A DNA stretch of 43,811 bases from an uncultured Lachnospiraceae bacterium (GTDB lineage: Bacteria; Bacillota; Clostridia; Lachnospirales; Lachnospiraceae), in contig CALWMI010000037.1 of NCBI GenBank assembly GCA_944381745.1, forward strand, positions 1-43,811, read 5' to 3'. The notes below the pieces were generated by a model that searched no databases, was not told the DNA's origin, and saw only the letters and a program-made list of their open reading frames with translations. The position numbers and the translations under genes are program-made. Shown here piece by piece: positions 9,705 through 26,399 of this stretch (the stretch's first letter is position 1; the number at the start of each line of letters is the position of its first letter).

Positions 9705-10142
9705 ATGTTGAAAGGAATTCCTCCGGTACTGTCCCCGGAACTTTTGAAAGTGCTGGCAGAGATGGGGCACGGCGAGACGATCGTCATCGGCGATGCTAAT
9801 TTTGCGGCGGCTTCCATGGCGAAGAACAGCATCCTCGTCCGCTGCGACGGGGTGCGGGCGACGGAGATCATGGACGCGATCCTGACGCTGATGCCGCTGG
9901 ACACGTTTGTGGACGACCCGGTGCTGATCATGGATAAGGAAGCGAAGGACGCGGACCTGGAGTGCCCGGTGTGGGACGAGTTCAAGGCGATCGTGGCCAA
10001 GCATGACGAGAGAGGGGCGGATGCCTGCGGAATGATTTCCAGGGGCAAGTTCTACACGATGGCGAAGAACGCCTACTGCGTCGTAGCTACCACGGAGACG
10101 GCTCTCTATGCCTGCACCATCCTCCAGAAGGGATGCCTGTAA
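9705..10142 (+). CDS. RbsD/FucU family sugar mutarotase
   Basis: A 145-residue protein of the RbsD/FucU fold, which interconverts the anomers of free sugars after uptake. The family signature is seen as AEMGHGETIVIGDANFAAAS near residues 18-37, with the catalytic-type His in GHG. The C-terminal YCVVATTETALYACTILQKG matches the FucU subgroup (fucose-type) better than RbsD. The gene lies directly upstream of the sugar importer and divergent from the transketolases, consistent with preparing an imported reducing sugar for a kinase. AAAGGGTGG precedes the ATG. Its exact sugar is not known. Confidence 0.87.
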   Translation: MLKGIPPVLSPELLKVLAEMGHGETIVIGDANFAAASMAKNSILVRCDGVRATEIMDAILTLMPLDTFVDDPVLIMDKEAKDADLECPVWDEFKAIVAKHDERGADACGMISRGKFYTMAKNAYCVVATTETALYACTILQKGCL

Positions 10143-11707: not shown

Positions 11708-11753
11708 ATTTCAGATTAACTCAGAAACGAGCGAGAACGGAGTTGTGGAAATT

Positions 11754-13321: not shown

Positions 13322-14323
13322 ATGCAGATAAATAAGAGTAAAGCGAAATTTTTGGTGGACTGGGCTGCCGTCATGGTACTGATTATCTCCGTCATCGTGT
13401 TCACAGCGATGAGAGGGACGGCATTCTTCTCCTTTGCGAACCTGATCAACATCCTGAGAGCCGTGTCTGCGGTGACCATCTTCGCCCTGGCGGCGACGGT
13501 GTCCATGGCGCCGGACGGCTTCGATATGGCGGCTGGAACGCTGGGTTCCTTCTGCGCGTATGTGTTCGCATCCCTGTTCCTGTGGTTCGCGATGCCCCTG
13601 TGGCTGTCCGTTTTCCTGACCATCATCTTTGCGATGATCATGTACCTGCTGAACATGTTCCTGATCCTTGTCTGCAAGGTTCCGGACATGCTTGCTACCT
13701 GCGCCTTGCAGTTTGTCCATCAGGGATTGGGACTTGCCTACACGGGCGGCGGCGCGATTTCCGCAGGCATGAGCACGGCAGCCTGGGCGGAGGCCCTGAA
13801 GGGCGGAGACAACACCCCGCTGCGCAGCGGCTGGACAGAGGCTTCCCAGAATATCGGTAAATCCCCGTACATCATCATCATCATGCTGATCTGCGTGGCG
13901 ATCTGCTTCGTCCTTCTGGAGAGGACGAAATACGGGCGCTACCTGTACGCTATGGGCGGCAACAAGACAGCAGCGAAGCTGTCCGGTATCGACGTGAAGA
14001 AGATGCGTTTCATGGCAGGTATGTTTGCCGCAGCATTCATCGCCGTAGGCGGTATCGTGGTCTGCTCCCGTAACTCGGCGGCGCAGGTCAACGGCTCTGA
14101 CAGCTACCTGATGAACTCCCTGGCAGCCGTATTCATCGGCCGTTCCGTAGGAGGAAGGGAGAAATACAATGCGATAGGAACGGTGATCGGGGCAATCCTG
14201 ATCACGACGCTGGAAAATGGTATGACAATGTGCGGTGTGCCTTACTACATACTGCCGGCTATGAAGGGCGCGGTTCTCTGCCTGGCTCTCGTTGCGGCAT
14301 ACATTACAACCAAGGAGGATTAA
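13322..14323 (+). CDS. Sugar ABC transporter permease (RbsC type)
   Basis: A 333-residue integral membrane protein of the ribose-type permease family, forming the channel as a homodimer. Hydrophobic helices occupy most of the length. Conserved-looking segments are TVSMAPDGFDMAAGTLGSF near residue 60 and ERTKYGRYLYAMGGNKTAAKLSGIDV, the cytoplasmic loop that contacts the ATPase. TGGAGGAA precedes the start by the normal distance. It is the last gene of the importer operon, followed by a clear terminator. Confidence 0.94.
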   Translation: MQINKSKAKFLVDWAAVMVLIISVIVFTAMRGTAFFSFANLINILRAVSAVTIFALAATVSMAPDGFDMAAGTLGSFCAYVFASLFLWFAMPLWLSVFLTIIFAMIMYLLNMFLILVCKVPDMLATCALQFVHQGLGLAYTGGGAISAGMSTAAWAEALKGGDNTPLRSGWTEASQNIGKSPYIIIIMLICVAICFVLLERTKYGRYLYAMGGNKTAAKLSGIDVKKMRFMAGMFAAAFIAVGGIVVCSRNSAAQVNGSDSYLMNSLAAVFIGRSVGGREKYNAIGTVIGAILITTLENGMTMCGVPYYILPAMKGAVLCLALVAAYITTKED

Positions 14324-14520: not shown

Positions 14521-14550
14521 TTTGTTGCTATTTGTTGACTTTTGACCGGT
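14521..14550. promoter_or_regulatory. Candidate operator: three 10-bp direct units overlapping the mtnK promoter
   Basis: TTTGTTGCTA (14521), TTTGTTGACT (14531) and TTTGACCGGT (14541) stand head to tail with exact 10-base spacing, on one face of the helix, and cover the -35 element. Comparable units occur upstream of dhaK and at the RuBisCO-like gene promoter. A DeoR-family repressor gene is 2.6 kb downstream. The role is inferred. Confidence 0.5.
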
Positions 14551-14563
14551 TCTGTTTTACAAT
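14535..14563 (+). promoter_or_regulatory. Promoter of mtnK-mtnA
   Basis: TTGACT (14535-14540), a 17-base spacer and TACAAT (14558-14563). The transcript would have a leader of about 100 bases. Confidence 0.8.
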
Positions 14564-14668: not shown

Positions 14669-15886
14669 ATGGCGAACTTTGACACTTATTTTCTGATGAA
14701 AGAGAACGACGCAATCGAGTATGCGAAGGCGAAGGTCCCTCAGAAGAACTGGGACGAGGCCACGATGGAGTGCAAGGAGATTGGCGACGGCAACCTGAAC
14801 TATGTGTTCAAGGTGAAGGACGCCAAGGGCAACAGCGTCATCGTGAAGCAGGCCGGCATCGAGCTGCGCATCTCTAAGGATATGAAGATTGACACAGACA
14901 GGAACCGCGTGGAGTCCGAGATCCTGCTTCTGTACGGCAAGCTGGCTCCCGGGCTGGTGCCGGAGATTTATGACTATGACACCGTGATGTGCGCCTGCTG
15001 TATGGAGGATCTGTCTGACCACGAGGTGATGCGCGGAGCGATGATCGAGCACAATATCTTCCCGAAATTTGCGGATCAGATTTCCACCTACATGGCAAGG
15101 GTACTGATGGGAACCACGGATGTGGTGATGGACCATCAGGAGAAGAAGAAGCTGCAGAAGAAGTTTATCACCCCGGACCTGTGTGATATCACAGAGCAGC
15201 TGGTTTATACAGAGCCCTACAACGACGAGAGGGGCCGCAACAACGTCTACGCCCCCAACGCGGAGTTCGTGAAGGAGAAGCTCTATGACGACGAGGAGCT
15301 CCACCTGGAAGTGGCTAAGCTGAAGATGGACTTTATGACCAGGGCGCAGTCCCTGATCCACGGCGACCTGCACACCGGCTCGATCTTCATCAACGAGGAC
15401 AGCACGATTGTGTTCGACCCGGAGTTCTGTATGTACGGCCCGATGGGATATGATATCGGCAACGTCATCGCCAACATGATCTTTGCATGGTGCAATGGCG
15501 ATGTGGCGGGAGCAGATGAGTTCTGCAAGTGGGCAGAGTCCGTCATCAAGGATGTGGTCAACATGACGATGGAGAAGATGGACCAGTACTATGACGAGCA
15601 TGTGACGGATACGATGTGCAAGAGCAAGGGCTTCAAGGAGTGGTACATGAAGTCTATCCTGGCGGATACCTCCGCTGTCACCGGCCTGGAGCTTATCCGC
15701 AGGACGGTGGGTATGGCCAACGTCAAGGACATTACCTCCATCGCCGATGAGAAGGCCCGCACCCGCGCAGAGCGCATCTGCATCACTGCAGCCATTGATT
15801 TTATCAAGAACCGCAGCGAGAAGAAGTGCGGCAACTGCTTCCTGAACACGCTGAAGGATGCTGTGGAGGCAGTGGACGCCCAGTAA
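14669..15886 (+). CDS. mtnK: S-methyl-5-thioribose kinase (possibly 5-deoxyribose kinase)
   Basis: A 405-residue kinase of the choline-kinase/APH fold that phosphorylates C1 of 5-methylthioribose. MtnK features are all visible: nucleotide loop EIGDGNLNYVFKV (from residue 37), catalytic SLIHGDLHTGSIF (HGDLHTG at 231-237) and metal-binding FDPEFCMYGPMGYDIGN (DPEF at 250-253). Length is typical. The usual methionine-salvage genes downstream of MtnA (mtnB, C, D or mtnW, X) are absent, and a microcompartment operon follows instead. The physiological sugar may therefore be 5-deoxyribose or both, since related kinases accept it in the DHAP shunt. It has a strong ribosome binding site (GGAGG) and is cotranscribed with mtnA. 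Confidence 0.92.
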   Translation: MANFDTYFLMKENDAIEYAKAKVPQKNWDEATMECKEIGDGNLNYVFKVKDAKGNSVIVKQAGIELRISKDMKIDTDRNRVESEILLLYGKLAPGLVPEIYDYDTVMCACCMEDLSDHEVMRGAMIEHNIFPKFADQISTYMARVLMGTTDVVMDHQEKKKLQKKFITPDLCDITEQLVYTEPYNDERGRNNVYAPNAEFVKEKLYDDEELHLEVAKLKMDFMTRAQSLIHGDLHTGSIFINEDSTIVFDPEFCMYGPMGYDIGNVIANMIFAWCNGDVAGADEFCKWAESVIKDVVNMTMEKMDQYYDEHVTDTMCKSKGFKEWYMKSILADTSAVTGLELIRRTVGMANVKDITSIADEKARTRAERICITAAIDFIKNRSEKKCGNCFLNTLKDAVEAVDAQ

Positions 15887-15963
15887 GCGTCCCGGCCTGT
15901 GTGCCGCAGCGGCGGCGGAGGCGCCGCAGGTTTTCAACATGCAGAAAGGAGAGGAAATCTGTA

Positions 15964-17073
15964 ATGGAAAATGCATTGAATCTGGACACCGTTGTTCTCG
16001 CAGAGAACGAGGAGGATATGATTATTCTTGACCAGACCCTGCTGCCCAATGAGACGAAGTACCTGACTCTCAACAAGGCGGAGGACATCTGGGAGGCAAT
16101 CTACAAGCTTCGCGTCAGAGGGGCGCCGGCCATCGGCGTGGCGGGGGCGTATGGATATTACGTGCTGGCCCGCCAGTTTGACACGGAGGATATGGACGAG
16201 TTTGTGAAGAAGTGCACGGAGATGATGGAGTACCTGAACTCCTCCCGCCCCACAGCGGTGAACCTGAGCTGGGCGCTGAACCGTATGCACGAAGTTCTCC
16301 TGAGCGAGAAGGAAGGCAAGACCGTGGCGCAGATGAAGGAGCGCCTGAAGGAGGAGGCCAACGCTGTCCGCGAGGAGGATATACAGATCAGCCGGAATAT
16401 CGGGGCCTATGGATATGAGCTCCTGAAGGCTATGGGAGACGAGGTGGGCATCATGACCCACTGCAACGCTGGAACCCTGGCTACCGCCAAGTACGGCACT
16501 GCCCTGGCGCCGGTGTACATCGCCCTGGAGAACGGCTGGGATCCGAAGAAGATCCATGTGTACTGCGACGAGACAAGGCCGCTGCTGCAGGGGGCCAGGC
16601 TGTCCGCCTATGAGATGCAGGCGGCGGGTGTGGACACCTACGTGCAGTGCGACAACATGGCCTCCTACACGATGAAGTCCGGCAAGATCGGCATCATCTT
16701 CGTGGGCTGCGACCGCGTGGCTGCCAACGGGGATTTCGCCAACAAGATCGGCACCAGCGGGGTGGCGATTATCGCTAAGCATTACGGGATCCCGTTCTAT
16801 GTGTGCGCACCGTCTTCCACCATCGACATGACCATGGAGTCGGGGGATGAGATCCATATCGAGCAGCGCAAGCCGGAGGAGGTCACCGAGATGTGGTATA
16901 AGGAGCGCATGGCTCCGGAGGGAGTCGGCGTCGTGAACCCGGCGTTCGACGTGACAGACCACAGCCTGGTGACAGGAATCATCACGGAGAAGGGCATCGC
17001 CTATGCGCCGTTCAAGGAGTCCTTCGAGAAGATGGGGATCAAGCCTGTCACAAAATATGTAGATAAGAAGTAA
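15964..17073 (+). CDS. mtnA: S-methyl-5-thioribose-1-phosphate isomerase (possibly 5-deoxyribose-1-phosphate isomerase)
   Basis: A 369-residue aldose-1-phosphate isomerase of the eIF2B-like family, converting methylthioribose-1-phosphate to methylthioribulose-1-phosphate. Key segments: RGAPAIGVAGAYGYY near residue 52, THCNAGTLAT with catalytic Cys167, DETRPLLQGARLSAYE, and GCDRVAANGDFANKIGT with catalytic Asp250. The open frame extends 46 codons upstream into mtnK, but the ATG at 15964 is preceded by AAAGGAGAGG and starts the homologous sequence. It lies 77 bases after mtnK. A long hairpin follows the stop. Confidence 0.94.
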   Translation: MENALNLDTVVLAENEEDMIILDQTLLPNETKYLTLNKAEDIWEAIYKLRVRGAPAIGVAGAYGYYVLARQFDTEDMDEFVKKCTEMMEYLNSSRPTAVNLSWALNRMHEVLLSEKEGKTVAQMKERLKEEANAVREEDIQISRNIGAYGYELLKAMGDEVGIMTHCNAGTLATAKYGTALAPVYIALENGWDPKKIHVYCDETRPLLQGARLSAYEMQAAGVDTYVQCDNMASYTMKSGKIGIIFVGCDRVAANGDFANKIGTSGVAIIAKHYGIPFYVCAPSSTIDMTMESGDEIHIEQRKPEEVTEMWYKERMAPEGVGVVNPAFDVTDHSLVTGIITEKGIAYAPFKESFEKMGIKPVTKYVDKK

Positions 17074-17102
17074 GCGAAAAGAGATAAAAAGGCCAAGGCA
17101 AA

Positions 17103-17142
17103 GGCCAGCCGGATCCCCGCAGTTTGCCGGGGGCGGCTGGCC
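17103..17142. terminator. Long hairpin between the convergent mtnA and deoR ends
   Basis: GGCCAGCCG (17103-17111) pairs with CGGCTGGCC (17134-17142), with an inner CCCC/GGGG stem. On the minus strand T-runs occur 3' of the hairpin, so it best serves as terminator of the deoR transcript. It may also stop mtnA transcripts. Confidence 0.65.
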
Positions 17143-17160
17143 GGAGGGCCTGGCAGTATT

Positions 17161-17913
17161 TTAGAAAAATTGGATATGATGTTCGGTCAGATAGTCTACC
17201 CAGTCTGAGGGAAAGTCCCGGTCCATGACGATGCCGTCCACAGCAGTCAGCGGCGCGATATGGGAGAAGGACACATTGTTCAGTTTCGAATGGTCTACCA
17301 CCAGATATTTCCGGCGGGCATGTTCCAGCGCCGTCTGGTGCAGCCGGGCGCGGCCGTCGCTGGTGTCGGTGATGCCGTAGCGCAGATGTACGCTCCGGCA
17401 GGAAATGATCGCCTTGTCCACGTAGTAGCGTTCCAGAGTCTTGATGGCGCCGTCGCCAATAAAATCCTTGTTTTTCGGAGAAAATTCTCCGCCGACCACA
17501 TGAAGCTTGATCGTGTCGGAGGCACAGAGGATATTTGCGATCTCCAGCGAGGAAGTCAGGACGGTGAGCTTCCGGTGGGCGATGAGCCGGGCGATGGACC
17601 AGCAGGTGGTGGAGCCGTCCAGGTAGATGTAATCCCCAGACTGGATGAGAGAATCGCATTTCTGCGCGATCCGCTCTTTCTCCGGTATCTTTAAGACCTG
17701 CCTTGTGCCGACATCGATATCGTTCTGGACGCCGTCCAATATATAAGCGCCGCCGTGGGTGCGGATCAACTCTCCATTCTGTTCCATTTCCCGCAGGTCG
17801 CGCCGGATGGTTTCCTTCGTGACGTTCAGCTGCGCGGCAAGCTCCGTGATCCTGACGCTCTTGTGCTCCTGCAGGCTCTCGCGGATGGCTGCCTTTCGTG
17901 CAATGGCTAACAT
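17161..17913 (-). CDS. DeoR family transcriptional regulator
   Basis: A 250-residue repressor. The N-terminal winged helix-turn-helix is seen in VRITELAAQLNVTKETIRRD and LREMEQNGELIRTHGGAYI (residues 20-57). The C-terminal phosphosugar-sensing domain has YLDGSTTCWSIARLI and VGGEFSPKNKDFIGDGAI. Such proteins usually leave DNA when they bind a sugar phosphate. The gene is divergent from the microcompartment operon and convergent with mtnA, sitting in the middle of the putative regulon. A good candidate ligand is the 1-phosphate made by MtnK or MtnA. AAGGAGGAAT precedes the start. Confidence 0.92.
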   Translation of the reverse strand: MLAIARKAAIRESLQEHKSVRITELAAQLNVTKETIRRDLREMEQNGELIRTHGGAYILDGVQNDIDVGTRQVLKIPEKERIAQKCDSLIQSGDYIYLDGSTTCWSIARLIAHRKLTVLTSSLEIANILCASDTIKLHVVGGEFSPKNKDFIGDGAIKTLERYYVDKAIISCRSVHLRYGITDTSDGRARLHQTALEHARRKYLVVDHSKLNNVSFSHIAPLTAVDGIVMDRDFPSDWVDYLTEHHIQFF

Positions 17914-17946
17914 ATTAGAGATTCCTCCTTGTTTTTTACTTCTTTC

Positions 17947-17975
17947 AGCATAGCATAAATGGGAGAAAATTGCAA
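17947..17975 (-). promoter_or_regulatory. Promoter of deoR
   Basis: On the minus strand TTGCAA (17975-17970), 17 bases and TATGCT (17952-17947). The palindromic TTGCAA is shared with the promoter running the other way, so one bound protein could control both directions. Confidence 0.5.
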
Positions 17976-17998
17976 TTTTTGTAAATTATTTGTAAAAC
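17970..17998 (+). promoter_or_regulatory. Promoter and repeat element of the microcompartment operon
   Basis: TTGCAA (17970-17975), 17 bases and TAAAAC (17993-17998) precede the RuBisCO-like gene. TTTGTAAA occurs twice with 11-base spacing (17978 and 17989) within the spacer and -10, the likely operator. The hexamers are weak, so the call is moderate. Confidence 0.5.
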
Positions 17999-18024
17999 AT
18001 CATCAATTCAGGGGGATAAGGGAA

Positions 18025-19194
18025 ATGAAATTTAAAGGCTATACGGATGAGCGGCTCTATTCGCTGGTGAGAGACCGGTTCACCGTAGATTATTGGATAA
18101 GAGGGGACGAACAGACGGCTCTTGACGCCGCGAAAAATATATGTGTGGAGCAGACGGTGGAGTTCCCAGCGGCCCACATCGAGTGCGATGGGATCCAGAA
18201 GGAGATCATCGGCCGCCTGGAGGCGTTTGTGCCGTCGGGGGAAGGGTATCTGGCCACGGTCAGCTATTCCGACCAGTGCGCGACGGAGGAATTCTCCCAG
18301 TTTTTCAATGTGGTGTTCGGCAATTCCAGCCTGCTGCCGGGAATCGTTGTGGAGGATATCCGGCTGTCGGAGGAGATGCTGGAGTGGTTCCCGGGGCCCA
18401 AATACGGGGCGGATGCCATCCGCAGGAAGCTGGGCGTGTACGGGAGGCCGCTTACCTTCACCGCCCTCAAGCCCATGGGGCTGCCGACGGAGGCGCTGGC
18501 GGACGAGGCTTACCAGTGCGCCCTGGGCGGGATCGATTTGATTAAGGACGACCACGGGCTGATGAATCAGCCGTTTTCAGAATATAAGAGCAGGGTCAAA
18601 GCAGTGTGCGAGGCAGTGCGCAGAGGAAATGAGGAGGGGGGCGGCCATACGATGTACATCCCCAACCTCTCCGGCAGCACCTTCGAGATTATGGACCGCG
18701 TGAAGTACGCCGAGGAATGCGGGGCGGAGGGCATTATGCTGGCCCCCGGCCTGGTAGGCTACGACACGATGCAGTATGTCGCCTCCCACACGGCGCTGTC
18801 TGTGACGGCGCATCCGGCCATGGCTGGCTGTTTCCTGGACAAGGGAGCGGGAGGCTTTGCCTGCGGGCTGATTATGGGGCTTTTGCCCCGTATCTGCGGA
18901 GCAGATTTCACCGTATTCCCCAACTATGGCGGACGCTTTTCCCTGACAGAGCAGCAGTGCCGCGATATTGTGGAGGGGTGTACGAGGAAATACGGCAGCA
19001 TGCCGTCCACGGTGCCGTGCCCGTCCGGAGGGATGACCTTCGGCAAGCTGAGTGCGATGAAGCAATTCTACGGCGGCGACGTGGCCTTCCTGATGGGAGG
19101 CGGGCTGTTTACCCACAGCCCGGATCTGGCGGAGAACTGCCGCATATTTAGAAGCAACCTGGAACAGCAGCAAAGCAACCAAGAAAAGAGGTAA
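18025..19194 (+). CDS. RuBisCO-like protein (form IV type)
   Basis: A 389-residue member of the RuBisCO large-chain superfamily. The enolising Lys is at residue 149 (TALKPMG) and the metal site reads GGIDLIKDDHG, with K174, D175 and D176 kept but His177 where true RuBisCO has Glu. H263 is followed by Pro (TAHPAMAG) instead of Arg, and no loop-6 lysine is seen, so carbon fixation is excluded. In Rhodospirillum rubrum a RuBisCO-like protein isomerises methylthioribulose-1-phosphate to 1-methylthioxylulose-5-phosphate. With mtnK and mtnA next door that class of reaction is likely here. The start at 18025 is chosen on homology and a GGGGAT/AGGG site; an upstream in-frame start gives an implausible 22-residue leader. 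First gene of the BMC operon. Confidence 0.9.
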   Translation: MKFKGYTDERLYSLVRDRFTVDYWIRGDEQTALDAAKNICVEQTVEFPAAHIECDGIQKEIIGRLEAFVPSGEGYLATVSYSDQCATEEFSQFFNVVFGNSSLLPGIVVEDIRLSEEMLEWFPGPKYGADAIRRKLGVYGRPLTFTALKPMGLPTEALADEAYQCALGGIDLIKDDHGLMNQPFSEYKSRVKAVCEAVRRGNEEGGGHTMYIPNLSGSTFEIMDRVKYAEECGAEGIMLAPGLVGYDTMQYVASHTALSVTAHPAMAGCFLDKGAGGFACGLIMGLLPRICGADFTVFPNYGGRFSLTEQQCRDIVEGCTRKYGSMPSTVPCPSGGMTFGKLSAMKQFYGGDVAFLMGGGLFTHSPDLAENCRIFRSNLEQQQSNQEKR

Positions 19195-19198
19195 GAAG

Positions 19199-20107
19199 AT
19201 GAGTTATCAGTACGATAACAAGTACCCCAGCGATTTCGAGGTCAAGCGGGATATCGTGGAGATCGGGCGCAGGATGTACGCCAGGAATTTTGTGGCGGCC
19301 AACGACGGCAATATCAGCGCCAAGGTCAGCGACAACACGATCTGGTGTACGCCCACAGGCGTATCCAAGGGCTATATGACCGAGGACATGCTGGTACTGA
19401 TGGATTTGGACGGGAACGTCCTGAAGGGGAATCTCAAGCCATCCACTGAGATCAAAATGCATCTTCGGGTCTACAGGGAAAATCCTGAGGTCAACGCGGT
19501 GGTACACGCGCATCCGCCTGCAGCCACATCCTACGCGATTGCGGGCCTGCCGCTGAACCACGCGATTATGACGGAGGCAGTGATGGGGATCGGGGAAATC
19601 CCGCTGGCGCCCTACGCGATGCCGGGTACGGAGGAGGTTCCCAACTCGATTGCACCCTTCGTGAAGACCCACAACGCCTGCCTGCTGGCAAACCACGGAG
19701 CCCTCACCTGGGGGCGGGATGCCATGGAGGCGTGGTTCCGGATGGAGTCGGTGGAGCATTTTGCCCTGGTGAACATGTACACCAACGGCCTCATCGGCCA
19801 TGCGAACGAGCTCACCTGCGATCAGGTGGACAGGCTGATCGAGAGGAGGACGAACAGCGGCATCTCCACGGGCGGACGCCCGCTCTGCCGCAACTGCGGC
19901 GCGGACGGGGTGCCTGCCTGCGTGGCTGGGAAGTGCAGCAGCGGCTGCCAGTCTTCTGGCGGAGCTTCTGCCTGCGGCACATCCACCTGCGGCACATCCA
20001 GCTGCGGCACGTCTTCCTGCTCCTGCAGCGAGGAGGACAAGCAGGACGCGCAGATGGTAGCGCAGATTGTCCAGCAGATACTTGCCAAGAACGGCTACGG
20101 CAGATGA
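19199..20107 (+). CDS. Class II aldolase with Cys-rich linker and C-terminal encapsulation helix
   Basis: A 302-residue protein: a zinc-dependent class II aldolase domain (about 1-215) plus a tail. Zinc ligands are H103 and H105 (VVHAHPPAATS) and H166 (ANHGALTWG); E84 (PSTEIKMH) is the catalytic acid. Relatives split fuculose-, rhamnulose- or 5-deoxyribulose-1-phosphate into DHAP and an aldehyde. Residues 230-276 hold ten cysteines among Gly, Ser and Thr, with CGTSx repeated. The last about 22 residues (EEDKQDAQMVAQIVQQILAK) form an amphipathic helix like those that target cargo into microcompartments. It follows the RuBisCO-like gene by four bases. The likely substrate is methylthioribulose- or 5-deoxyribulose-1-phosphate. 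Confidence 0.9.
   Translation: MSYQYDNKYPSDFEVKRDIVEIGRRMYARNFVAANDGNISAKVSDNTIWCTPTGVSKGYMTEDMLVLMDLDGNVLKGNLKPSTEIKMHLRVYRENPEVNAVVHAHPPAATSYAIAGLPLNHAIMTEAVMGIGEIPLAPYAMPGTEEVPNSIAPFVKTHNACLLANHGALTWGRDAMEAWFRMESVEHFALVNMYTNGLIGHANELTCDQVDRLIERRTNSGISTGGRPLCRNCGADGVPACVAGKCSSGCQSSGGASACGTSTCGTSSCGTSSCSCSEEDKQDAQMVAQIVQQILAKNGYGR
19973..20017 (+). repeat. In-frame 15-bp tandem repeat in the aldolase linker
   Basis: Three 15-base units beginning TGCGGCAC encode CGTST, CGTSS and CGTSS. They make the most regular part of the cysteine-rich linker, and copy number may vary between strains. Confidence 0.8.
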
Positions 20108-20147
20108 GCCGCGCCGTCTGTGGGAACAGAAAGCAGGTGATGTGAAG

Positions 20148-21224
20148 TTGAAGATTGATAAGTCCGAGATCCGGCGTACCGTCCTAACGGAACTGGCTCG
20201 TCAGGGGTTGAGCAGGTTCGTTCCAGTGGGGATATCGGCTCGGCACGTCCATCTTACAGAGGCAGACATTGAGGCTTTGTTCGGAAAAGGCTACAAGCTG
20301 AATCCCATCAGGCCCCTGTCGCAGCCGGGACAGTTCGCCGCGAGAGAGCAGGTGACGGTCATCGGCCCAAGAGGACGGTTGGAACATGTGAGGGTCTTAG
20401 GGCCAGCCAGGAAGGAGAGCCAGGTGGAGATTTCCATCTCCGATTCCTTCGTGCTGGGGGCGAAAAATTGCCCGGTGCGGCTGTCAGGCGACCTGGAGGG
20501 AACCATGGGCGTGAAGCTTTTGGGGCCGGAAGGGCAGGTGGAGCTCAAAAAAGGGCTCATCGTGGCAGCCAGGCATCTGCATATGAACGAGGAACAGGCG
20601 AAAGCCTTCGGCATCCATGACCGGCAGGTGATCGCAGTGAAGGTGACCGGCGACCGGCCTTGCCTTCTGGAAAATGTGATCTGCCGGACAGGCAGCGGCC
20701 ACGAGCTGGAGCTGCATCTGGATACGGATGAGGCCAATGCCTGCGCCCTTGGAAGCGGCGATCTTGTGGAGATTGTGCCTTCCGGGGAAGCGGGGTGCGC
20801 TCCCTGCGGCGGGCAGCGGGATAGGATTCCCGGACAGGCGTCCGTCCAGGGACAGGCAGGAGGCACAGGAGGGCAGGCGGGAGAGACATGGAAGCCCGCA
20901 GGCGCTCAGGCTCTTGCACCGGCCAGGCTGGAGCGCAATATCGCCCCGTCCATGAGAGAGGGCAACGCCCCGATCCCAGAGGTGTGGAGAGAGCCGACGC
21001 CGGCGCAGAAGTATGAATTCCGCCCGGTGGAGTGCACAAGACAGGTGGTCGAGGTGCCGGAGGAGGAGATCCTGGAGTTGGTGACCGAGAGGGATATCAA
21101 CGACGCCTACCGGGACAACAAGACCCAGATCTACTGTGAGAAGAAGGCTTTGATCACCCCGTCGGCGAAAGACCGCGCGGTGGCGGCCGGAATCAAGATT
21201 ATCCGGATGAAAGGGAGGGATTAG
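20148..21224 (+). CDS. pduL: PduL-type phosphotransacylase with a C-terminal extension
   Basis: Converts acyl-CoA and phosphate to acyl-phosphate and CoA inside the shell, recycling CoA. The two PduL half-domains are plain: GISARHVHLTEADIEALFG (H33, H35) and VAARHLHMNEEQAKAFGI (H143, H145), with HLDTDEANAC near residue 190. The core ends near residue 210, the normal PduL length. A further ~148 residues follow: a Gly/Gln-rich linker and a compact end with ALITPSAKDRAVAAGIKI, a motif that resembles the C-terminus of PduM and the N-terminus of EutT/EutQ as I remember them. The start is uncertain: TTG 20148 (spacing from AGGTGA) or GTG 20142. Confidence 0.87.
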   Translation: MKIDKSEIRRTVLTELARQGLSRFVPVGISARHVHLTEADIEALFGKGYKLNPIRPLSQPGQFAAREQVTVIGPRGRLEHVRVLGPARKESQVEISISDSFVLGAKNCPVRLSGDLEGTMGVKLLGPEGQVELKKGLIVAARHLHMNEEQAKAFGIHDRQVIAVKVTGDRPCLLENVICRTGSGHELELHLDTDEANACALGSGDLVEIVPSGEAGCAPCGGQRDRIPGQASVQGQAGGTGGQAGETWKPAGAQALAPARLERNIAPSMREGNAPIPEVWREPTPAQKYEFRPVECTRQVVEVPEEEILELVTERDINDAYRDNKTQIYCEKKALITPSAKDRAVAAGIKIIRMKGRD

Positions 21225-21228
21225 CCGT

Positions 21229-21549
21229 ATGCAGATTGCGAGAGTCGTTGGGACAGTGGTGAGTACGAGCAAATCCGAGAAGCTTACAGGGCTTAAGATG
21301 CTGCTTGTCAAGCCGATAGACCTGGAGACCTTTCAGGAGAAGGGAAATATTTTGGTGGCGTTCGACGCGGTGGGCGCAGGAGAGGGAGAAGTGGTCATGA
21401 TCGTATCCGGCTCCTCCTCACGCCAGACGGCGCTGACCGAGAACAAACCGTCCGATACGGCGATTATCGCCATTATCGATTATATTGACTTGTATAATAA
21501 ACGCATATTCAGCAAAGAAAAAGAAGAGAGTAAGAAGGTGGATAGTTAA
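21229..21549 (+). CDS. BMC-P (EutN/CcmL family) shell vertex protein, first copy
   Basis: A 106-residue pentamer-forming protein that closes shell vertices. The family start MQIARVVGTVVSTSK and the end IIAIIDYIDL are clear. The C-terminus carries an extra charged tail (KEKEESKKVDS). AGGGAGGG precedes the ATG, and the stop overlaps the aldehyde dehydrogenase start by one base (TAATG), giving translational coupling. Confidence 0.93.
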   Translation: MQIARVVGTVVSTSKSEKLTGLKMLLVKPIDLETFQEKGNILVAFDAVGAGEGEVVMIVSGSSSRQTALTENKPSDTAIIAIIDYIDLYNKRIFSKEKEESKKVDS

Positions 21550-22964
21550 TGCTTACGAAGGAGCAAATTGAGCAGATCGTCGAGATGACCGTCGCTCAGA
21601 TGAACAGCCAGGCTAAAGCCACCGCAGGGAACACGCAGGCGTCCGGCAACGGATGGATGTTTGACCGGGCCGAGGACTGCATCAAGGCGGCCGGCGTCGC
21701 CCAGAAGCAGCTGGTGGCCATGTCCATGGAGGCGAGGGAGTCGCTCATCCGCGCCATGCGCAAGGCCGCGGTGGACAACGCCGAGAGGCTGGCGCAGATG
21801 GCTCACGACGAGACAGGCTACGGCAAGGTTCCGGACAAAATCCAGAAGATCCTGCTGGTGGCCAACAAGACGCCTGGCACAGAGGATATTGTGCCGCGGG
21901 TATTCACCGGCGACAAGGGGATGACCCTGGTGGAGCAGGCGCCGTTCGGCGTCATCGGTTCCATCACCCCTTCCACCAATCCGCCGGGAACCGTCATCAA
22001 CAACTCCATCAGCATGATCGCAGGCGGGAACGCCGTGGTGTTCAACCCGCATCCGTCGGCCAAGAAGTGCTGCCAGGAGACGATGCGGATCCTCAACGAC
22101 GCGATTGTGGCGGCGGGAGGGCCGGTGGGCCTGATCTGCTGTCCCACAAACCCCAGCCTGGAGACGAGCGATGTGATTATGAACCATCCGGATATCAAGC
22201 TTTTGTCTGTCACCGGCGGCGAGGCCGTGGTAAGCGTGGCGATGAAGACTGGCAAGAAATGCATCTCCGCAGGGCCGGGCAACCCGCCGGTCATCGTGGA
22301 TGAGACGGCGCTGATACCCAAGGCGGCGAAGGATATCGTGGACGGCGCGTCCTTTGACAACAATGTGCTCTGCGTCGCAGAGAAGGAGTGCTTCGCCGTC
22401 AACACTGTGTTCGACCAGCTGATGTCCGAGATGCAGAAGAACGGCGCTTGGCTGGTGAAGGGCGAGGACATCGACAAGATCGTGCGCACGGTGCTGATCA
22501 ACAAGGATGGCAAATATGTGATCAACCGGAAATTTGTCGGCCATGACGCGACCTACATCATGGATCAGTCGGGCGTGTCCTACTCGGGCAATCCCCGCCT
22601 GGTGATCGCGGAGGTTCCGAGGGAGCATCCCTTCGTGGTGGTGGAAATGCTGATGCCGGTGCTGGGCTGCGTGCGCTGCCAGGATGTGGATCAGGCGATC
22701 GACTGGGCTGTGTGGGCGGAGAGAGGCTGCTGGCACTCCGCGCTGATGCACTCCACAAACTACCTGAACATGACCAAGGCTGCCAGGGCTCTGAACACCA
22801 CCATCTTTGTGAAGAACGGCCCGTCCACCGCAGGCGTGGGATTCAACGGGGAAGGCTATGCGACCTTGACCATCGCCACTCCCACCGGGGAGGGGCTGAC
22901 GTCGGCGAGAAGCTTTACGAGGGCGCGCAGGTGCGTGCTGGAAGACGGCTTCCGCATCATTTAA
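21549..22964 (+). CDS. CoA-acylating aldehyde dehydrogenase (PduP/EutE family), microcompartment cargo
   Basis: Oxidises the aldehyde made by the aldolase to acyl-CoA with NAD. The 471 residues include the cofactor region SITPSTNPPGTVINNS and the catalytic Cys275 in SFDNNVLCVAEKE. The N-terminus MLTKEQIEQIVEMTVAQMNS forms a short amphipathic helix, followed by a flexible stretch (about 21-34), as in PduP targeting peptides, so it is very probably encapsulated. No alcohol dehydrogenase is encoded in the operon, so the NADH formed must be reoxidised another way, possibly by the next gene product. Confidence 0.94.
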   Translation: MLTKEQIEQIVEMTVAQMNSQAKATAGNTQASGNGWMFDRAEDCIKAAGVAQKQLVAMSMEARESLIRAMRKAAVDNAERLAQMAHDETGYGKVPDKIQKILLVANKTPGTEDIVPRVFTGDKGMTLVEQAPFGVIGSITPSTNPPGTVINNSISMIAGGNAVVFNPHPSAKKCCQETMRILNDAIVAAGGPVGLICCPTNPSLETSDVIMNHPDIKLLSVTGGEAVVSVAMKTGKKCISAGPGNPPVIVDETALIPKAAKDIVDGASFDNNVLCVAEKECFAVNTVFDQLMSEMQKNGAWLVKGEDIDKIVRTVLINKDGKYVINRKFVGHDATYIMDQSGVSYSGNPRLVIAEVPREHPFVVVEMLMPVLGCVRCQDVDQAIDWAVWAERGCWHSALMHSTNYLNMTKAARALNTTIFVKNGPSTAGVGFNGEGYATLTIATPTGEGLTSARSFTRARRCVLEDGFRII

Positions 22965-22970
22965 CGGCCT

Positions 22971-24269
22971 ATGGGACTGGTGGAGCAGATTCGGGATGCC
23001 GGTGTTGTGGGTGCAGGCGGCGCCGGATTTCCAACCGATCGAAAACTGAACTGCAAAGCAGAAATATTTATTGTAAACGGTATTGAGTGCGAGCCGCTGC
23101 TGCGCACGGACCGCCATGTGATGGAACAGTACGCGCCGGAGATTGTGAAGACGGTGCGGGCCATCCGGGACAGCCTGGGAGCGAAGCGGGCGGTGATCGC
23201 CTTGAAGGAGCACTATGACAAGGCAGTGGAGGCGCTGCGGGCAGCCGTGAAGGGGACAAAGGTGGAGCTTTATCTGTCCGAGTCCTTCTACCCGGCGGGA
23301 GACGAGCAGAACCTGGTGTACTGCGTGACCGGAAGGGTGGTACCCACAGGAGGCATCCCGCTGGATGTGGGCTGTGTGGTCAGCAACGTGAGTACGGTGC
23401 TGAATATCGCCCATGCCATGAACGGGCAGCCGGTCACCGAGAAGATGGTGACGGTGGCCGGGAGCGTGGCGAAGCCGGTGACGGTAACCTGCCCAATCGG
23501 GACGCCGCTGTCCCGCCTTCTGGAGGCGGCCGGCGGGCCGGTGGGGGACTGTACCTATATCGTGGGCGGGCCTCTGATGGGCAAGGTGACGGACGACCTG
23601 TCTGAGCCGGTGACCAAGACCACAGGAGGGCTTCTGGCTATCCCCAAGGGACATCCGATCCTGGCGAAGAAGGTGGCAGGGGCGCGGGACGCCATGCTGG
23701 CAAGGGCTGTGTGCAGCCAGTGCTCCATGTGCACCCAGATGTGCCCGAGAAACGCCATGGGGCTGAATGTGCAGCCGCACAAGGCCATGCGGGCGCTGGC
23801 CTCCGGGAACGAGAGCCTGCTGGGGGATGTGAACGGCATTTTCTCCTGCTGCGACTGCGGCGTTTGCACCTACTTTGCCTGCAACTTCGGGCTGAAGCCC
23901 AGCAAGGCGATGCAGCAGGCCAAGGCAAAGCTGGCGGCCCAGGGGATCAAGCCGGTGAAGGAAGTCAAGTATGAGCCGGAGCGGGGAATTGACAACAAGC
24001 GGGTCCCCACAGAGCGGCTTCTGCTGCGGCTGGATTTGAAGAAGTACGACAAGGATGCGCCGATGGGAGGCTTCGTGGACTGCGCGGATGTGCGGATCCC
24101 GCTGAAGATGCATATCGGCGGGCCGGACGAGCCGGTGGTGGCTGCCGGGCAGCATGTGTCCAAGGGACAGCTGATCGCCAGGCCGTCGGGGATGGGAGCG
24201 AATATCCACGCGTCCATTGACGGCACCGTCTCGGCGGTGACAGAAGAATTCATAGAGATAAGGAAGTGA
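22971..24269 (+). CDS. pduS: PduS-like (RnfC-family) iron-sulfur flavoprotein
   Basis: A 432-residue relative of RnfC and PduS. The N-terminal nucleotide/flavin motif VVGAGGAGFPTDRKL is at residues 12-26. Two iron-sulfur motifs follow: CSQCSMCTQMCP (C248, C251, C254, C258) and CCDCGVCTYFAC (C293-C304). PduS in propanediol microcompartments is an NADH-linked flavoprotein that reduces cobalamin. No cobalamin enzyme is encoded here, so a role in NADH oxidation and electron export through the shell is more likely. The ATG lies six bases after the dehydrogenase stop with no clear Shine-Dalgarno site, suggesting coupling. Confidence 0.92.
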   Translation: MGLVEQIRDAGVVGAGGAGFPTDRKLNCKAEIFIVNGIECEPLLRTDRHVMEQYAPEIVKTVRAIRDSLGAKRAVIALKEHYDKAVEALRAAVKGTKVELYLSESFYPAGDEQNLVYCVTGRVVPTGGIPLDVGCVVSNVSTVLNIAHAMNGQPVTEKMVTVAGSVAKPVTVTCPIGTPLSRLLEAAGGPVGDCTYIVGGPLMGKVTDDLSEPVTKTTGGLLAIPKGHPILAKKVAGARDAMLARAVCSQCSMCTQMCPRNAMGLNVQPHKAMRALASGNESLLGDVNGIFSCCDCGVCTYFACNFGLKPSKAMQQAKAKLAAQGIKPVKEVKYEPERGIDNKRVPTERLLLRLDLKKYDKDAPMGGFVDCADVRIPLKMHIGGPDEPVVAAGQHVSKGQLIARPSGMGANIHASIDGTVSAVTEEFIEIRK

Positions 24270-24273
24270 GACG

Positions 24274-24819
24274 ATGGGTGCCATTGGTATGAATGAAGTG
24301 ATGAGTATACCCGCAGGTATCCAGGCTTGCGATGCCATGCTGAAGGCGGCGGAGGTAGAGCTTATCAGCGCAGGCTGCGTCTGCGCAGGAAAATATTATA
24401 TCGTCGTTGCCGGAGAGGTTGCCGCTGTGCGTTCTTCGATCGAAGCCGGGAGAGAGGTGGCGGAGAGCCTGCTCATCGACAGCATGGTGATCCCGAACGT
24501 GGATCCCCAGGTGGCGCCGGCCATCAGCGCATGCACGATGGTGGACCGCCTGCAGGCGCTGGGGATTATGGAGACCTACTCCCTGTGCGCGGCGGTGCAG
24601 GCCGCAGATGCGGCGGCCAAGGCGGCGGAGGTAGAGCTCCTGGAGGTGCGCTTAGGGCGCGGCCTGGGAGGCAAATCTTTTATCCTGCTGACCGGGGAGG
24701 TGGCTGCGGTGCAGTCCTCCATCAAGGCGGCAGAGGCGCTGGAGGAGACGAAGGGGCTGATGGCGAAGAGCGCCGTGATCCCGTCCCCCCATCCGGACAT
24801 GCTGAAGGCCATCGGCTGA
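24274..24819 (+). CDS. BMC-T (tandem BMC domain) shell protein, PduT-like
   Basis: A 181-residue shell protein with two BMC domains (about 5-90 and 93-178), forming pseudohexameric trimers. The first domain has GCVCAGKYYIVVAGEVAAV: Cys37 takes the place of the PduT cysteine that binds a [4Fe-4S] cluster in the central pore. The second domain reads RGLGGKSFILLTGEVAAV. Directly downstream of the PduS-like gene, it fits an electron-transfer pair. AGGAAGTGAG precedes the start; the stop is followed by a 145-base gap with a promoter. Confidence 0.92.
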   Translation: MGAIGMNEVMSIPAGIQACDAMLKAAEVELISAGCVCAGKYYIVVAGEVAAVRSSIEAGREVAESLLIDSMVIPNVDPQVAPAISACTMVDRLQALGIMETYSLCAAVQAADAAAKAAEVELLEVRLGRGLGGKSFILLTGEVAAVQSSIKAAEALEETKGLMAKSAVIPSPHPDMLKAIG

Positions 24820-24828
24820 GGCAGCGGA

Positions 24829-24857
24829 TTGACAAAAAGCGGAAAATGCCGCACAAT
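24829..24857 (+). promoter_or_regulatory. Internal promoter before the BMC-H gene
   Basis: TTGACA (24829-24834), 17 bases and CACAAT (24852-24857), in the only sizeable gap of the BMC operon. A small GGGCATAATGCCC palindrome (about 24865-24877) follows. It would give extra message for the most abundant shell protein. Confidence 0.55.
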
Positions 24858-24964
24858 AGTGGCAGGGCATAATGCCCGGGCAGAATCCGAGATAGAACAG
24901 TAACTGGAACAACACAGAGCTTTGATAGTTTTAAGTGAAAAATAATCATACGGAGGGAATAATA

Positions 24965-25255
24965 ATGAAAGAAGCATTAGGAATGATCGAGACTCGCGGA
25001 CTGATTGGATCCATCGAGGCGGCAGATGCCATGGTAAAGGCTGCAAACGTAAGGCTGATCGGCAAGGTGCAGATCGGTTCTGGACTGGTAACGGTGATGG
25101 TGCGCGGAGACGTAGGCGCTGTGAAGGCAGCTGTGGACGCAGGCGCAGCGGCTGCAAAGCGTGTCGGCGAGCTGTACGGCGTACATGTCATCCCTCGTCC
25201 GCACTCTGACGTGGAGTACATCCTTCCCAGCATCGACCGCGGCGAAGAGGAGTAA
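24965..25255 (+). CDS. BMC-H major shell protein (PduA/EutM type)
   Basis: A 96-residue hexamer-forming shell protein, [20 protein letters not shown] at the start and [20 protein letters not shown] in the core. The pore loop reads KVQIGSGL. It is the only single-domain BMC protein in the window, so it should form most of the facets. An in-frame start lies ten codons upstream, but ATG 24965 is preceded by CGGAGGGA at ideal distance and begins the conserved sequence. Confidence 0.95.
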
Positions 25256-25258
25256 CCC

Positions 25259-25525
25259 ATGTATACTGGCGTAGTGGCCGGCTCAGTGGTTGCAACCGTG
25301 AAGGATCCGGCGCTGGAGGGAGTCCCGCTGCTCCTCGTCCGCAAGATTGAGGACGGCAGAGAGGGAGATCTGATCATTGCGGCGGACCAGACCCGCCAGG
25401 CGGGGATGGGCGATTATATCTACATGATCGGCTCCAAGGAGGCGGCCAGGATTTTCCGCAGGGGGAACATACCGGTGGACGTGGCCATCGTCGGGTTTAT
25501 TGACACTTACAACGAGGAAATTTGA
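25259..25525 (+). CDS. BMC-P (EutN/CcmL family) shell vertex protein, second copy
   Basis: An 88-residue pentameric vertex protein: MYTGVVAGSVVATVKDPALEG at the start, a central RQAGMGDYIYMIGSKEAAR and the ending VAIVGFIDTYN are typical. It begins three bases after the BMC-H stop and is clearly coupled. It differs strongly from the first and third copies. Confidence 0.93.
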   Translation: MYTGVVAGSVVATVKDPALEGVPLLLVRKIEDGREGDLIIAADQTRQAGMGDYIYMIGSKEAARIFRRGNIPVDVAIVGFIDTYNEEI

Positions 25526-25542
25526 GAGAGGAGGGACTGGGG

Positions 25543-25851
25543 ATGCGTCTGGCAAAGGTTGTGGGAAATGTGATATCCACCGTCAAGGACGACGGGTATT
25601 ACGGATATAAGCTGATGCTTGTGGAGTATTTTGACCCGGAGACCGGCGCTCCCCAGGGCCCCCGGATGATTGCCTTTGACTGTGCGGACTCCGGGGTCGG
25701 GGATACGGTGATCGTGAACACGGATGGCGGCGCAGGCAACATGCTGTTCGACGACGAGTACGCCATCTTTGACCTGGTGATCTGCGGAGTGGTGGACAAT
25801 TATACGGTAGACGGAGAGACCCATGTGATACATGGGGCGGCGGAGAGCTGA
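25543..25851 (+). CDS. BMC-P (EutN/CcmL family) shell vertex protein, third copy
   Basis: A 102-residue vertex protein with MRLAKVVGNVISTVKDDGYYG, then a central ADSGVGDTVIVNTDGGAGNM and the ending DLVICGVVDNYTVDG. The ATG at 25543 is chosen over a TTG seven codons upstream, since GAGAGGAGGGA fits it. Three distinct BMC-P paralogs in one locus suggests mixed or specialised vertices. Confidence 0.93.
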   Translation: MRLAKVVGNVISTVKDDGYYGYKLMLVEYFDPETGAPQGPRMIAFDCADSGVGDTVIVNTDGGAGNMLFDDEYAIFDLVICGVVDNYTVDGETHVIHGAAES

Positions 25852-25886
25852 GAAGCGGAAGCTTAAGCGGCAGGAGGAGGCTGTAT

Positions 25887-26399
25887 ATGGAGCAGGGAGC
25901 ACAGGGCTCGATCGGGCCCAAGGACATCGCCGGTCAGCTGGCGGGTATCTATGAAGACTTTACGGAGGCTGTCCAGGCGCTGGGCGGCAAGGGGAAGAAG
26001 CGCTCCGGCAAGCTTGTCTCCAGCATGGCCAAGTGGGTCGGCGGAAGCCATGTGGTGACTGACCGGGAGCAGCTCTGCCAGAAGTTCCTGGCGGATGTGC
26101 AGAAACAGCTGGAGCTCTTGACGCTGTCCCTGGAGATCGCCACGGAGGAGGAAGCGGCGGAAGCCTGCGGCATCGCGGCGGATATCCTGACCGCGCCCAG
26201 GCCGTCCCAGTCCAATTCTACCACGGATCTCATGAAGCGGGCGATGATCGGCCAGGTCATGCCGTTCCTGAAGTACGTGAAGAGGGAGCAGCTGCAGGCA
26301 ATCCGGGACCGGTTGGACGGCGCCTATACGCGCTGGGCGATCCTGCCGGTGGAGAAAGAAGTGAAGAAGGAGCTGGACCGCCTGATCGGCCAGGATTAG
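25887..26399 (+). CDS. Hypothetical helical protein at the end of the BMC operon
   Basis: A 170-residue, mostly helical, charged protein that I do not recognise. It starts MEQGAQGSIGPKDIAGQL and contains a basic segment GGKGKKRSGK (about 33-42), a Leu-rich helix (FLADVQKQLELLTLSLEIA) and a charged C-terminal helix (VEKEVKKELDRLIGQ). GGCAGGAGGAGG gives it a strong ribosome binding site, 35 bases after the last shell gene. There are no membrane helices or signal peptide, so it is cytoplasmic or in the shell lumen. Position suggests a microcompartment assembly or cargo-adaptor role, which is a guess. Its stop overlaps the convergent gene by four bases. Confidence 0.7.
   Translation: MEQGAQGSIGPKDIAGQLAGIYEDFTEAVQALGGKGKKRSGKLVSSMAKWVGGSHVVTDREQLCQKFLADVQKQLELLTLSLEIATEEEAAEACGIAADILTAPRPSQSNSTTDLMKRAMIGQVMPFLKYVKREQLQAIRDRLDGAYTRWAILPVEKEVKKELDRLIGQD

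Follow-up and report, generated by a model that had tools for sequence, protein, structure and literature searches.

A candidate microcompartment locus for 5-deoxypentoses, with a RuBisCO-like protein and a split transketolase, in an uncultured Lachnospiraceae bacterium

Which substrate does a bacterial microcompartment (BMC) serve when its genes stand beside those of a methylthioribose kinase and its partner isomerase? The question is raised by a locus at 5133-26399 of the window, by which we mean the whole stretch analysed here, 43,811 nucleotides of DNA from an uncultured Lachnospiraceae bacterium (GCA_944381745.1, CALWMI010000037.1). Its source is contig G000:C37 of a 2.35-Mb genome assembly in 114 contigs, a metagenome-assembled genome (MAG) of 94.9% completeness. 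In a genome-wide search all three matches to the BMC domain PF00936 lie inside this locus, which holds a metabolosome gene set: BMC-H, BMC-T and EutN-type shell genes, a CoA-acylating aldehyde dehydrogenase (AldDH) and the phosphotransacylase PduL. The proteins of 5133-26399 were scanned with Pfam and with curated NCBIfam-type models and their cut-offs. An earlier note on this DNA had placed mtnK and mtnA next to a BMC operon with a class II aldolase (Ald), AldDH, PduL, a PduS-like protein and shell proteins. Both genes are confirmed where it put them, MtnK and MtnA score above the curated cut-offs, and model matches bear out the other proteins. Its statement that diol dehydratase, glycyl-radical enzyme and ethanolamine lyase are missing likewise holds, none being found among the scanned proteins, with the rest of the genome unscanned for these. 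The unit extends to the left of mtnK, with DhaL/DhaK, a split transketolase, a FucU/RbsD mutarotase and an RbsABC-type importer (5133-14323). A gene for a DeoR regulator divides the cluster.

From its sequence we read the locus, with a probability of about two in three, as encoding a catabolic microcompartment that handles 5-deoxypentoses; 5-deoxyribose is the likeliest substrate, and 5-methylthioribose may be another. The sugar would be imported by the RbsABC-type transporter and its anomers balanced by the FucU/RbsD-like protein. Judged by family membership, MtnK would form the 1-phosphate and MtnA 5-X-ribulose-1-phosphate, which the shell-held Ald would split into dihydroxyacetone phosphate (DHAP) and X-acetaldehyde (acetaldehyde for 5-deoxyribose). 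AldDH and PduL would convert the aldehyde through acyl-CoA to acyl-phosphate, so that 5-deoxyribose would give net DHAP and acetyl-phosphate. PduS may carry electrons across the shell, and ATP could be gained from acyl-phosphate via the one acetate kinase of the host genome, which is encoded elsewhere. In a second branch, probably cytosolic, a RuBisCO-like protein (RLP) would act first, and the divergent split transketolase would then remove a C2 unit, leaving glyceraldehyde-3-phosphate.

The chemistry of the DHAP shunt is published (PMC6079011, PMC10986504). Escherichia coli with this shunt is described as unable to ferment 5-deoxyribose, for which ATP and redox limits are blamed (PMC10986504); shell-enclosed oxidation to acetyl-phosphate would be a plausible way round that limit. 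If the reading is true, it explains what an enigmatic group of bacterial organelles does. The shell, the core enzymes and the shunt chemistry are already known; their union and the attachment of RLP and transketolase do not appear in the literature searched. Searches pairing microcompartments with these sugars, mtnK and RLP, judged by their listings, brought up no proposal of such a BMC and linked none to these sugars. The terms methylthioribose, methylthio and MtnA are absent from the main texts, as far as they were covered, of the BMC catalogues PMC8217296, PMC4207490 and PMC8156839 (supplements lay outside the search). In a paper on Acetobacterium woodii a methylthioribose kinase gene beside the pdu cluster was deemed unrelated to BMC function (PMC7593272).

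Recurrence of the gene set and tails of the aldolases

Within 200 genomes of the family, RLP has matches in 15 at E <= 0.001; in four of these, its own genome among them, the identity is at least 42%. A non-exhaustive contig scan over 84,980 species, made with two peptide patterns from an alignment of four RLPs, gave 70 RLP loci, 11 of which hold shell genes (L028-L033, L036, L038, L061, L076, L096). The 14 loci that we call T1 are the window, L028-L033, L036, L038, L061, L076/L140, L096, L141 and L142, the last two being Parasporobacterium loci to which genome searches led. L034, whose contig ends right after Ald and before any shell gene, stands outside this count, despite its label T1 in our aldolase trees. 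The hosts are MAGs named Lachnospiraceae, Oscillospiraceae and relatives, Parasporobacterium and one Treponema. MtnK, MtnA, Ald, PduL, PduS, BMC-T and BMC-H are encoded in all 14 T1 loci, FucU in eight. The BMC stretches of L141 and L142 are without RLP, which these two genomes encode, together with the transketolase, on separate contigs (L035, L089). In the Treponema locus Ald is encoded upstream of the importer (L140); that this locus (L076) lacks an aldolase and makes the aldehyde by transketolase alone was considered and rejected, since Ald came to light once the genome was searched and more of the contig was read.

The pathway genes also recur in loci without RLP, which we call T2. Among 392 genomes of the order, 90 (its own genome included) matched Ald at E <= 1e-50, and two, the window's genome and G253, matched RLP at E <= 1e-55. 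Stretches fetched from 17 other genomes comprise nine T2 loci (L143-L150, L152) and eight further ones (L151, L153-L159). MtnA, Ald, AldDH and BMC-H are present in 9/9 T2 loci, MtnK in 8/9 (the contig of L149 begins inside mtnA), an importer ABC subunit in 7/9 (L143 and L149 begin too late), PduL in 7/9 (unseen in L147, which is cut, and in L149) and a vertex-protein match in 6/9 (not L147-L149); no RLP or transketolase match is found in the nine stretches. The conserved mtnK-mtnA-BMC neighbourhoods for which the earlier note had advised a search number 14 T1 loci, the window among them, and nine T2 loci, with MtnK out of view in L149. Because it recurs in so many genomes, the gene set is more than a chance association. 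Among the further stretches, L155 and L156 encode importer, MtnK, MtnA and Ald with no shell match, L153 and L154 only MtnA and Ald, and L151 no partner of Ald within 15.8 kb. L157-L159 are BMC stretches with Alds 43-49% identical and no MtnK or MtnA seen; L158 encodes an 841-aa protein with a glycyl-radical-like C-terminus.

The Alds of BMC loci extend past the catalytic domain, with an amphipathic end in 22 of 23, and the fucose-type control Alds (L157-L159) are tailed as well. Five non-BMC Alds (L151, L153-L156) end soon after a common GGxP motif, without a tail. The highest 16-residue hydrophobic moment within the last 26 residues is 0.36-0.75 in the 22 and 0.23-0.34 in the five; the exception, L149 (0.23), has a tail whose end is not amphipathic, possibly owing to a broken frame. 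The N-termini of AldDH and PduL look encapsulation-like by eye. Ald may be kept in the shell through its C-terminal tail. RLP and transketolase are probably cytosolic, because their termini resemble those of non-BMC homologues.

The RuBisCO-like protein and its transketolase

The RLP, encoded directly before Ald, is a homologue of MtnW, the methionine-salvage enolase, and had been overlooked, so that the claim of no methionine-salvage genes after mtnA needs qualifying. RLP is nevertheless not MtnW: this identity was rejected, as its scores of 198 and 161 are far below the two MtnW cut-offs (409 and 514). Among solved structures 3qfw, which we take to be the RLP1 of R. palustris, comes closest (242 bits; the next reaches 149). 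The motif KDDHG is found in 69 of 74 collected RLP frames, same-genome copies included, and KDDE in none. The DeepYkr RLP1 of R. palustris is described as converting 5-methylthioribulose-1-phosphate to 1-methylthio-xylulose-5-phosphate and 1-methylthio-ribulose-5-phosphate (PMC5893883).

Of the 70 RLP loci, 40 show matches to both transketolase halves and two further ones to a single half, many of the others being short contigs. The module is thus common in anaerobes that have no BMC. RLP loci with transketolase include those of Clostridium ljungdahlii, C. drakei, heliobacteria and Anaerosolibacter, and RLP, MtnK and MtnA occur together without a shell match in L045, L046, L050, L075, L080, L088, L094 and L095. 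In the Treponema locus both halves are fused in a single 659-aa open frame (L076:8003-9979). Planctomycetaceae contribute RLP contigs, mostly short, without a transketolase match in view (L051, L054, L055, L060, L063, L066, L068-L070, L072, L073, L079).

Fourteen chosen RLP-linked transketolases were aligned with E. coli TktA, whose numbering is used here, and with Dxs. They have Y for H26 and M for H100 (13/13 with the residue visible), and all 14 have no aligned residue at H261, F for H461 and G for D469. E411, S385, H473 and R520 are kept in 14/14, and H66 is H or Q. Dxs is also without H100, H261 and H461 and keeps H26 and D469. H100 and H473 act at the C1 hydroxyl of the donor and R358 at the phosphate. 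H26 and H261 are reported to hydrogen-bond docked aldehydes, and D469 to point into the active site (PMC5073344). The loss of polar groups would fit a donor without C1 hydroxyl, such as the product of RLP. Position R358 holds R or K except in the window and four further proteins, which carry N; this asparagine argues to some degree against a phosphate site of the customary kind, and so against the role proposed below.

We suggest tentatively, and at rather less than even odds, that RLP and the split transketolase make up a salvage route not described before, which needs no oxygen and is widespread among anaerobes, and that some Clostridia and a Treponema have coupled it to an encapsulated DHAP shunt. 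RLP would isomerise the MtnA product 5-X-ribulose-1-phosphate to 1-X-xylulose-5-phosphate, and a transketolase specific for 1-deoxyketoses would turn this into glyceraldehyde-3-phosphate and a two-carbon adduct of thiamine pyrophosphate (TPP), to be released as acetaldehyde (X = H) or as acetyl and methanethiol (X = SCH3). Literature searches for RLP with transketolase and methionine salvage showed no such pathway by title and abstract. If true, a microcompartment system would be tied to a RuBisCO-family protein without being a carboxysome, and the RLP-transketolase module would be a compact candidate for a new branch of anaerobic salvage of S-adenosylmethionine by-products.

The substrate and the aldehyde

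A PduP-type AldDH is not visible in three T1 loci, L031 (genome G080), L032 and L033. An acetaldehyde dehydrogenase (TIGR02518, cut-off 620) is encoded near L031 (719 bits), a few kb away among matches to EutA, EutB, EutC, EutL, EutT and EutS (EutA and EutT below their cut-offs), and in L033 (703 bits), after the vertex proteins and with EutJ. The other Aldedh matches of G080 are two pieces in one place (54 and 29 bits). An acetaldehyde dehydrogenase replacing the PduP-type AldDH points to acetaldehyde as the aldehyde, which favours 5-deoxyribose over methylthioribose; of the two sugars named by the earlier note, the evidence leans to the former. The Eut-like genes of G080 (L098:2595-10579) stand a few kb from the T1 locus that lost its AldDH, and the genome suggests two BMC pathways sharing one acetaldehyde dehydrogenase.

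Several findings weigh against this reading. T1 loci were mostly found with RLP as bait, so the presence of RLP in them is no independent count, and RLP, transketolase and DhaK/DhaL would be superfluous to a plain DHAP shunt. In L032 the AldDH is unseen on a short contig. Of 500 shuffles of the window's aldolase tail 71 give as high a moment, which makes it unexceptional; as many as 0-179 do so across T1 and 2-27 in T2, save L149 with 473. The hydrophobic moment alone is therefore weak for T1, and the presence of a tail is the clearer difference. In the aldolase tree, rebuilt without E. coli FucA and AraD (branch length 10 at first), L032 and L151, neither T1 nor T2 forms one clade, and the non-BMC, MtnK/MtnA-linked Ald of L156 groups, by way of long branches, with the fucose-type Alds of BMC loci. 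Run against PDB, the aldolase family profile scores the fuculose aldolase 4c24 (124 bits) above 6btd (116), whose code appears in the DrdA paper (PMC6079011), and gives about 95 bits for the fuculose aldolases 1dzw/1fua. With scores so similar, the sequence of Ald does not single out 5-deoxyribulose-1-phosphate; the linkage to MtnA supports it. The host has two PNP_UDP_1 proteins, one DeoD-like and one uridine-phosphorylase-like below its cut-off, and MtnN was not found among them in this 94.9% complete MAG, so that the sugar would come from outside or by another route, import being the likely source. In L091 and L077, shell-less RLP-transketolase clusters contain MtnA together with genes named by eye as two of nucleoside phosphorylase type and an ABC importer of nucleoside type, which would suit the import of intact 5'-deoxynucleosides.

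The encapsulated MtnK-MtnA-aldolase pathway proposed by the earlier note is supported in part, by its recurrence in T1 and T2, by the Ald tails, by the lack of a fucose or rhamnose isomerase match and by the two loci with acetaldehyde dehydrogenase. It was incomplete in that RLP, split transketolase, DhaK/DhaL, FucU and importer had been overlooked, and a plain DHAP shunt leaves no place for RLP, transketolase and kinase.

In a fucose or rhamnose metabolosome (PVM, PVM-like, GRM5) the aldolase would make lactaldehyde, and the MtnK and MtnA homologues would be bystanders or act on other sugars. Such a system would account for the class II aldolase and the DeoR regulator common to GRM5, PVM and PVM-like loci and for the PduS of GRM5 (PMC4207490), as well as for a FucU-type mutarotase and an aldolase profile that fits fuculose aldolase structures as well as DrdA. 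It is unlikely all the same. The host genome, at 94.9% completeness, has no match to fucose isomerase PF07881 or rhamnose isomerase PF06134, each of which matched 3 of 14 control genomes, and neither glycyl-radical enzyme nor diol dehydratase is among the scanned locus proteins. The fucose-type BMC stretches L157-L159 lack MtnK and MtnA, L158 having the glycyl-radical-like protein. MtnK and MtnA accompany the aldolase in the 14 T1 and nine T2 loci, MtnK being out of view in the truncated L149.

For 5-methylthioribose, the BMC would confine methylthioacetaldehyde and the RLP-transketolase branch free methanethiol, from which sulfur could be salvaged anaerobically. Phosphoketolase offers a known case of beta-elimination from a TPP adduct, and methionine occupies the TktA H100 position in RLP-linked transketolases; the DeepYkr RLP1 acts on 5-methylthioribulose-1-phosphate (PMC5893883), and the E. 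coli DHAP shunt is described as having a MtnK and a MtnA that accept 5-deoxyribose and methylthioribose alike (PMC10986504). This sugar as the main substrate is nonetheless improbable, if slightly less so than fucose or rhamnose: the acetaldehyde dehydrogenase of two loci indicates a plain C2 aldehyde, and no methanethiol-assimilation gene was noticed by eye among the neighbours of the C. ljungdahlii module (L045). The least probable substrate is ribose or ribose-1-phosphate (X = OH), which would yield DHAP and glycolaldehyde for the shell. Ribose has a simpler ribokinase route, the transketolase is without several polar residues of the canonical active site, and the acetaldehyde dehydrogenase substitution argues against this sugar too. 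On its side are the RbsABC-like importer, FucU within the RbsD family, a haloarchaeal ribulose-1-phosphate aldolase model at 106 bits (cut-off 300) and a ribose role of the B. subtilis methionine-salvage enzymes cited in the reference list of PMC10986504. A microcompartment for 5-deoxypentoses, 5-deoxyribose foremost, remains the reading that we prefer.

Features of the locus and comparison with known systems

Table 1. Features predicted at the locus, with coordinates in the window and the evidence for each.
Feature	Coordinates	Strand	Evidence
DhaL-like subunit (DAK2 domain)	5133..5789	-	PF02734 119 bits; TIGR02365 94 bits, below cut-off 138
DhaK-like ketose kinase subunit (Dak1 domain)	5819..6811	-	PF02733 374 bits; TIGR02363 355 bits, below cut-off 406
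Small membrane protein, transketolase-DhaK interval	7035-7625	-	no Pfam family
Split transketolase C-terminal half (TKc)	7609..8595	-	PF02779/PF02780
Split transketolase N-terminal half (TKn)	8608..9513	-	PF00456 75 bits; altered active site
FucU/RbsD-type sugar mutarotase	9705..10142	+	PF05025 138 bits; fucose mutarotase model 95, below cut-off 141
Importer sugar-binding protein	10381..11619	+	PF13407 53 bits
Sugar ABC transporter ATPase (RbsA/AraG type)	11745..13283	+	NCBIfam AraG 479 bits, below cut-off 689
Sugar ABC transporter permease (RbsC type)	13322..14323	+	ribose permease model 125 bits, below cut-off 398
Candidate promoter TTGACT-17-TACAAT ahead of mtnK	14535..14563	+	by eye
MtnK-like 5-methylthioribose/5-deoxyribose kinase	14669..15886	+	TIGR01767 385 bits, above cut-off 275
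MtnA-like aldose-1-phosphate to ketose-1-phosphate isomerase	15964..17073	+	TIGR00512 420 bits, above cut-off 279
DeoR-family regulator	17161..17913	-	PF00455, PF08220
RuBisCO-like protein (RLP)	18025..19194	+	PF00016 106 bits; KDDHG motif
Class II aldolase (Ald), Cys-rich linker and C-terminal encapsulation-type segment	19199..20107	+	PF00596 184 bits
PduL phosphotransacylase, start codon uncertain	20148..21224	+	PF06130 245 bits; PRK15070 255 bits, above cut-off 209
EutN/CcmL-type vertex protein 1	21229..21549	+	CcmL model 96 bits, below cut-off 125
CoA-acylating aldehyde dehydrogenase (PduP type, AldDH)	21549..22964	+	PRK15398 645 bits, above cut-off 403
PduS/RnfC-like flavin and Fe-S protein	22971..24269	+	TIGR01945 270 bits, above cut-off 246; PF01512, PF13375
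BMC-T shell protein, two BMC domains	24274..24819	+	PF00936 twice
BMC-H shell protein (EutM-like)	24962..25255	+	PF00936 100 bits; PRK15474 134 bits, cut-off 133
EutN/CcmL-type vertex protein 2	25259..25525	+	CcmL model 43 bits, below cut-off
EutN/CcmL-type vertex protein 3	25546..25851	+	PF03319 64 bits
Conserved all-helical 170-aa protein	25887..26399	+	no family match; predicted model pLDDT 80

The start chosen for MtnA is approximate, the open frame beginning at 15826. TKc has a counterpart of 93% identity at the same position in L029. The 170-aa helical protein, encoded in 6/14 T1 loci, gave no PDB match with Foldseek at E <= 0.001 and no Pfam or NCBIfam-type family. DhaK is encoded in five of the 14 T1 stretches (window, L030, L033, L141, L142), three of the nine T2 (L144, L145, L152) and the non-BMC L080, with flanks of differing length across loci; DhaL stands beside the locus in L030, L033, L080, L141 and L142, and matches to the small membrane protein beside DhaK in L033, L141 and L142. 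A role of DhaK/DhaL on 5-deoxyribulose is only a guess. Rfam and tRNA scans gave a tRNA-Gly as their sole result, and a repeat search nothing informative. The hexamers and spacer of the candidate promoter are also found before mtnK in L028 and L029 and were not seen in the examined stretches of L030, L031, L033 and L061. A near-identical 19-base box occurs at 14555-14573 (+, before mtnK) and 17979-17997 (-, between deoR and RLP). We do not claim it as a shared operator: the pattern was drawn post hoc from its own two sites, and the idea is weakened by the overlap of the box at 14555 with the promoter -10 box. With up to three mismatches it is absent from 13/13 other T1 loci, L144 having one match with three mismatches, and a relaxed look in six loci did not reveal it either.

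The T2 loci resemble a system already on record. In L144, Ald is followed by AldDH, four shell-position genes, PduL, a vertex protein, a solute-binding-like protein, a CoA-disulfide reductase-like flavoprotein, two CoA-transferase-position proteins and an iron-containing alcohol dehydrogenase (Fe-ADH). Compared via the published table, this is the gene order of the 'CoAT BMC' in Table 11 of the Clostridium indolis genome paper (PMC4149025), from which we take the name CoA-transferase, NCBIfam giving no hit at 1e-10. In 2014 the CoAT BMC was said to lack a key enzyme and its substrate was left unnamed; Table 11 begins at deoR and lists no MtnK, MtnA or importer (PMC4149025). In T2, MtnK and MtnA are encoded upstream, beyond the span of Table 11, as is the importer wherever it can be seen, with a divergent deoR between MtnA and Ald in L143-L146 and L152 and no DeoR match there in L147-L150. 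All four CoAT-type proteins were matched by tblastn in L143, L144, L145, L146, L150 and L152, and part of them in L148 and L149, where stretch or contig ends; in L147 they are out of view. A solute-binding-like gene (PF01547) stands beside Ald/MtnA clusters with and without BMC (L144:13778-14893, L155 ~1798, L156 ~8250); the L144 protein has no obvious N-terminal signal peptide by eye and may be an intracellular sugar-binding protein.

The CoAT BMC thus shares with T2 the aldolase, PduP, shell, PduL and EutN. The T1 locus of the window differs from it in having PduS, BMC-T and three EutN, whereas the CoAT BMC has a CoA-transferase pair, an NAD(FAD)-dependent dehydrogenase and Fe-ADH; tblastn found no match to the CoA-transferase pair, the CoA-disulfide-reductase-like protein or Fe-ADH beside the window locus. 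A DeoC-type aldolase and RpiB are named as features of SPU BMCs (PMC8217296); their markers PF01791 and PF02502 have no match among the Pfam-scanned locus proteins, the whole genome being unscanned for them. With PVM, PVM-like and GRM5 loci the window shares a class II aldolase, AldDH and DeoR, and PduS with GRM5 (PMC4207490), besides the aldolase tail seen in L157-L159; it differs in MtnK-MtnA, in the lack of an isomerase match in the host and in the lack of a glycyl-radical enzyme at the locus. The DeepYkr RLPs of the MTA-isoprenoid shunt are the probable nearest kin of RLP, judged by 3qfw, and RLP would act after MtnA; it differs in its partnership with a split transketolase and, within this lineage, a BMC. 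The DHAP shunt (drdK-drdI-drdA; mtnK-mtnA-ald2) has the same clustered kinase, isomerase and class II aldolase, to which some bacteria add a sugar importer (PMC6079011, PMC10986504). Compared with this shunt, the window has an aldolase with an encapsulation-type tail, shell proteins, AldDH and PduL alongside, and RLP, split transketolase and DhaK/DhaL in addition.

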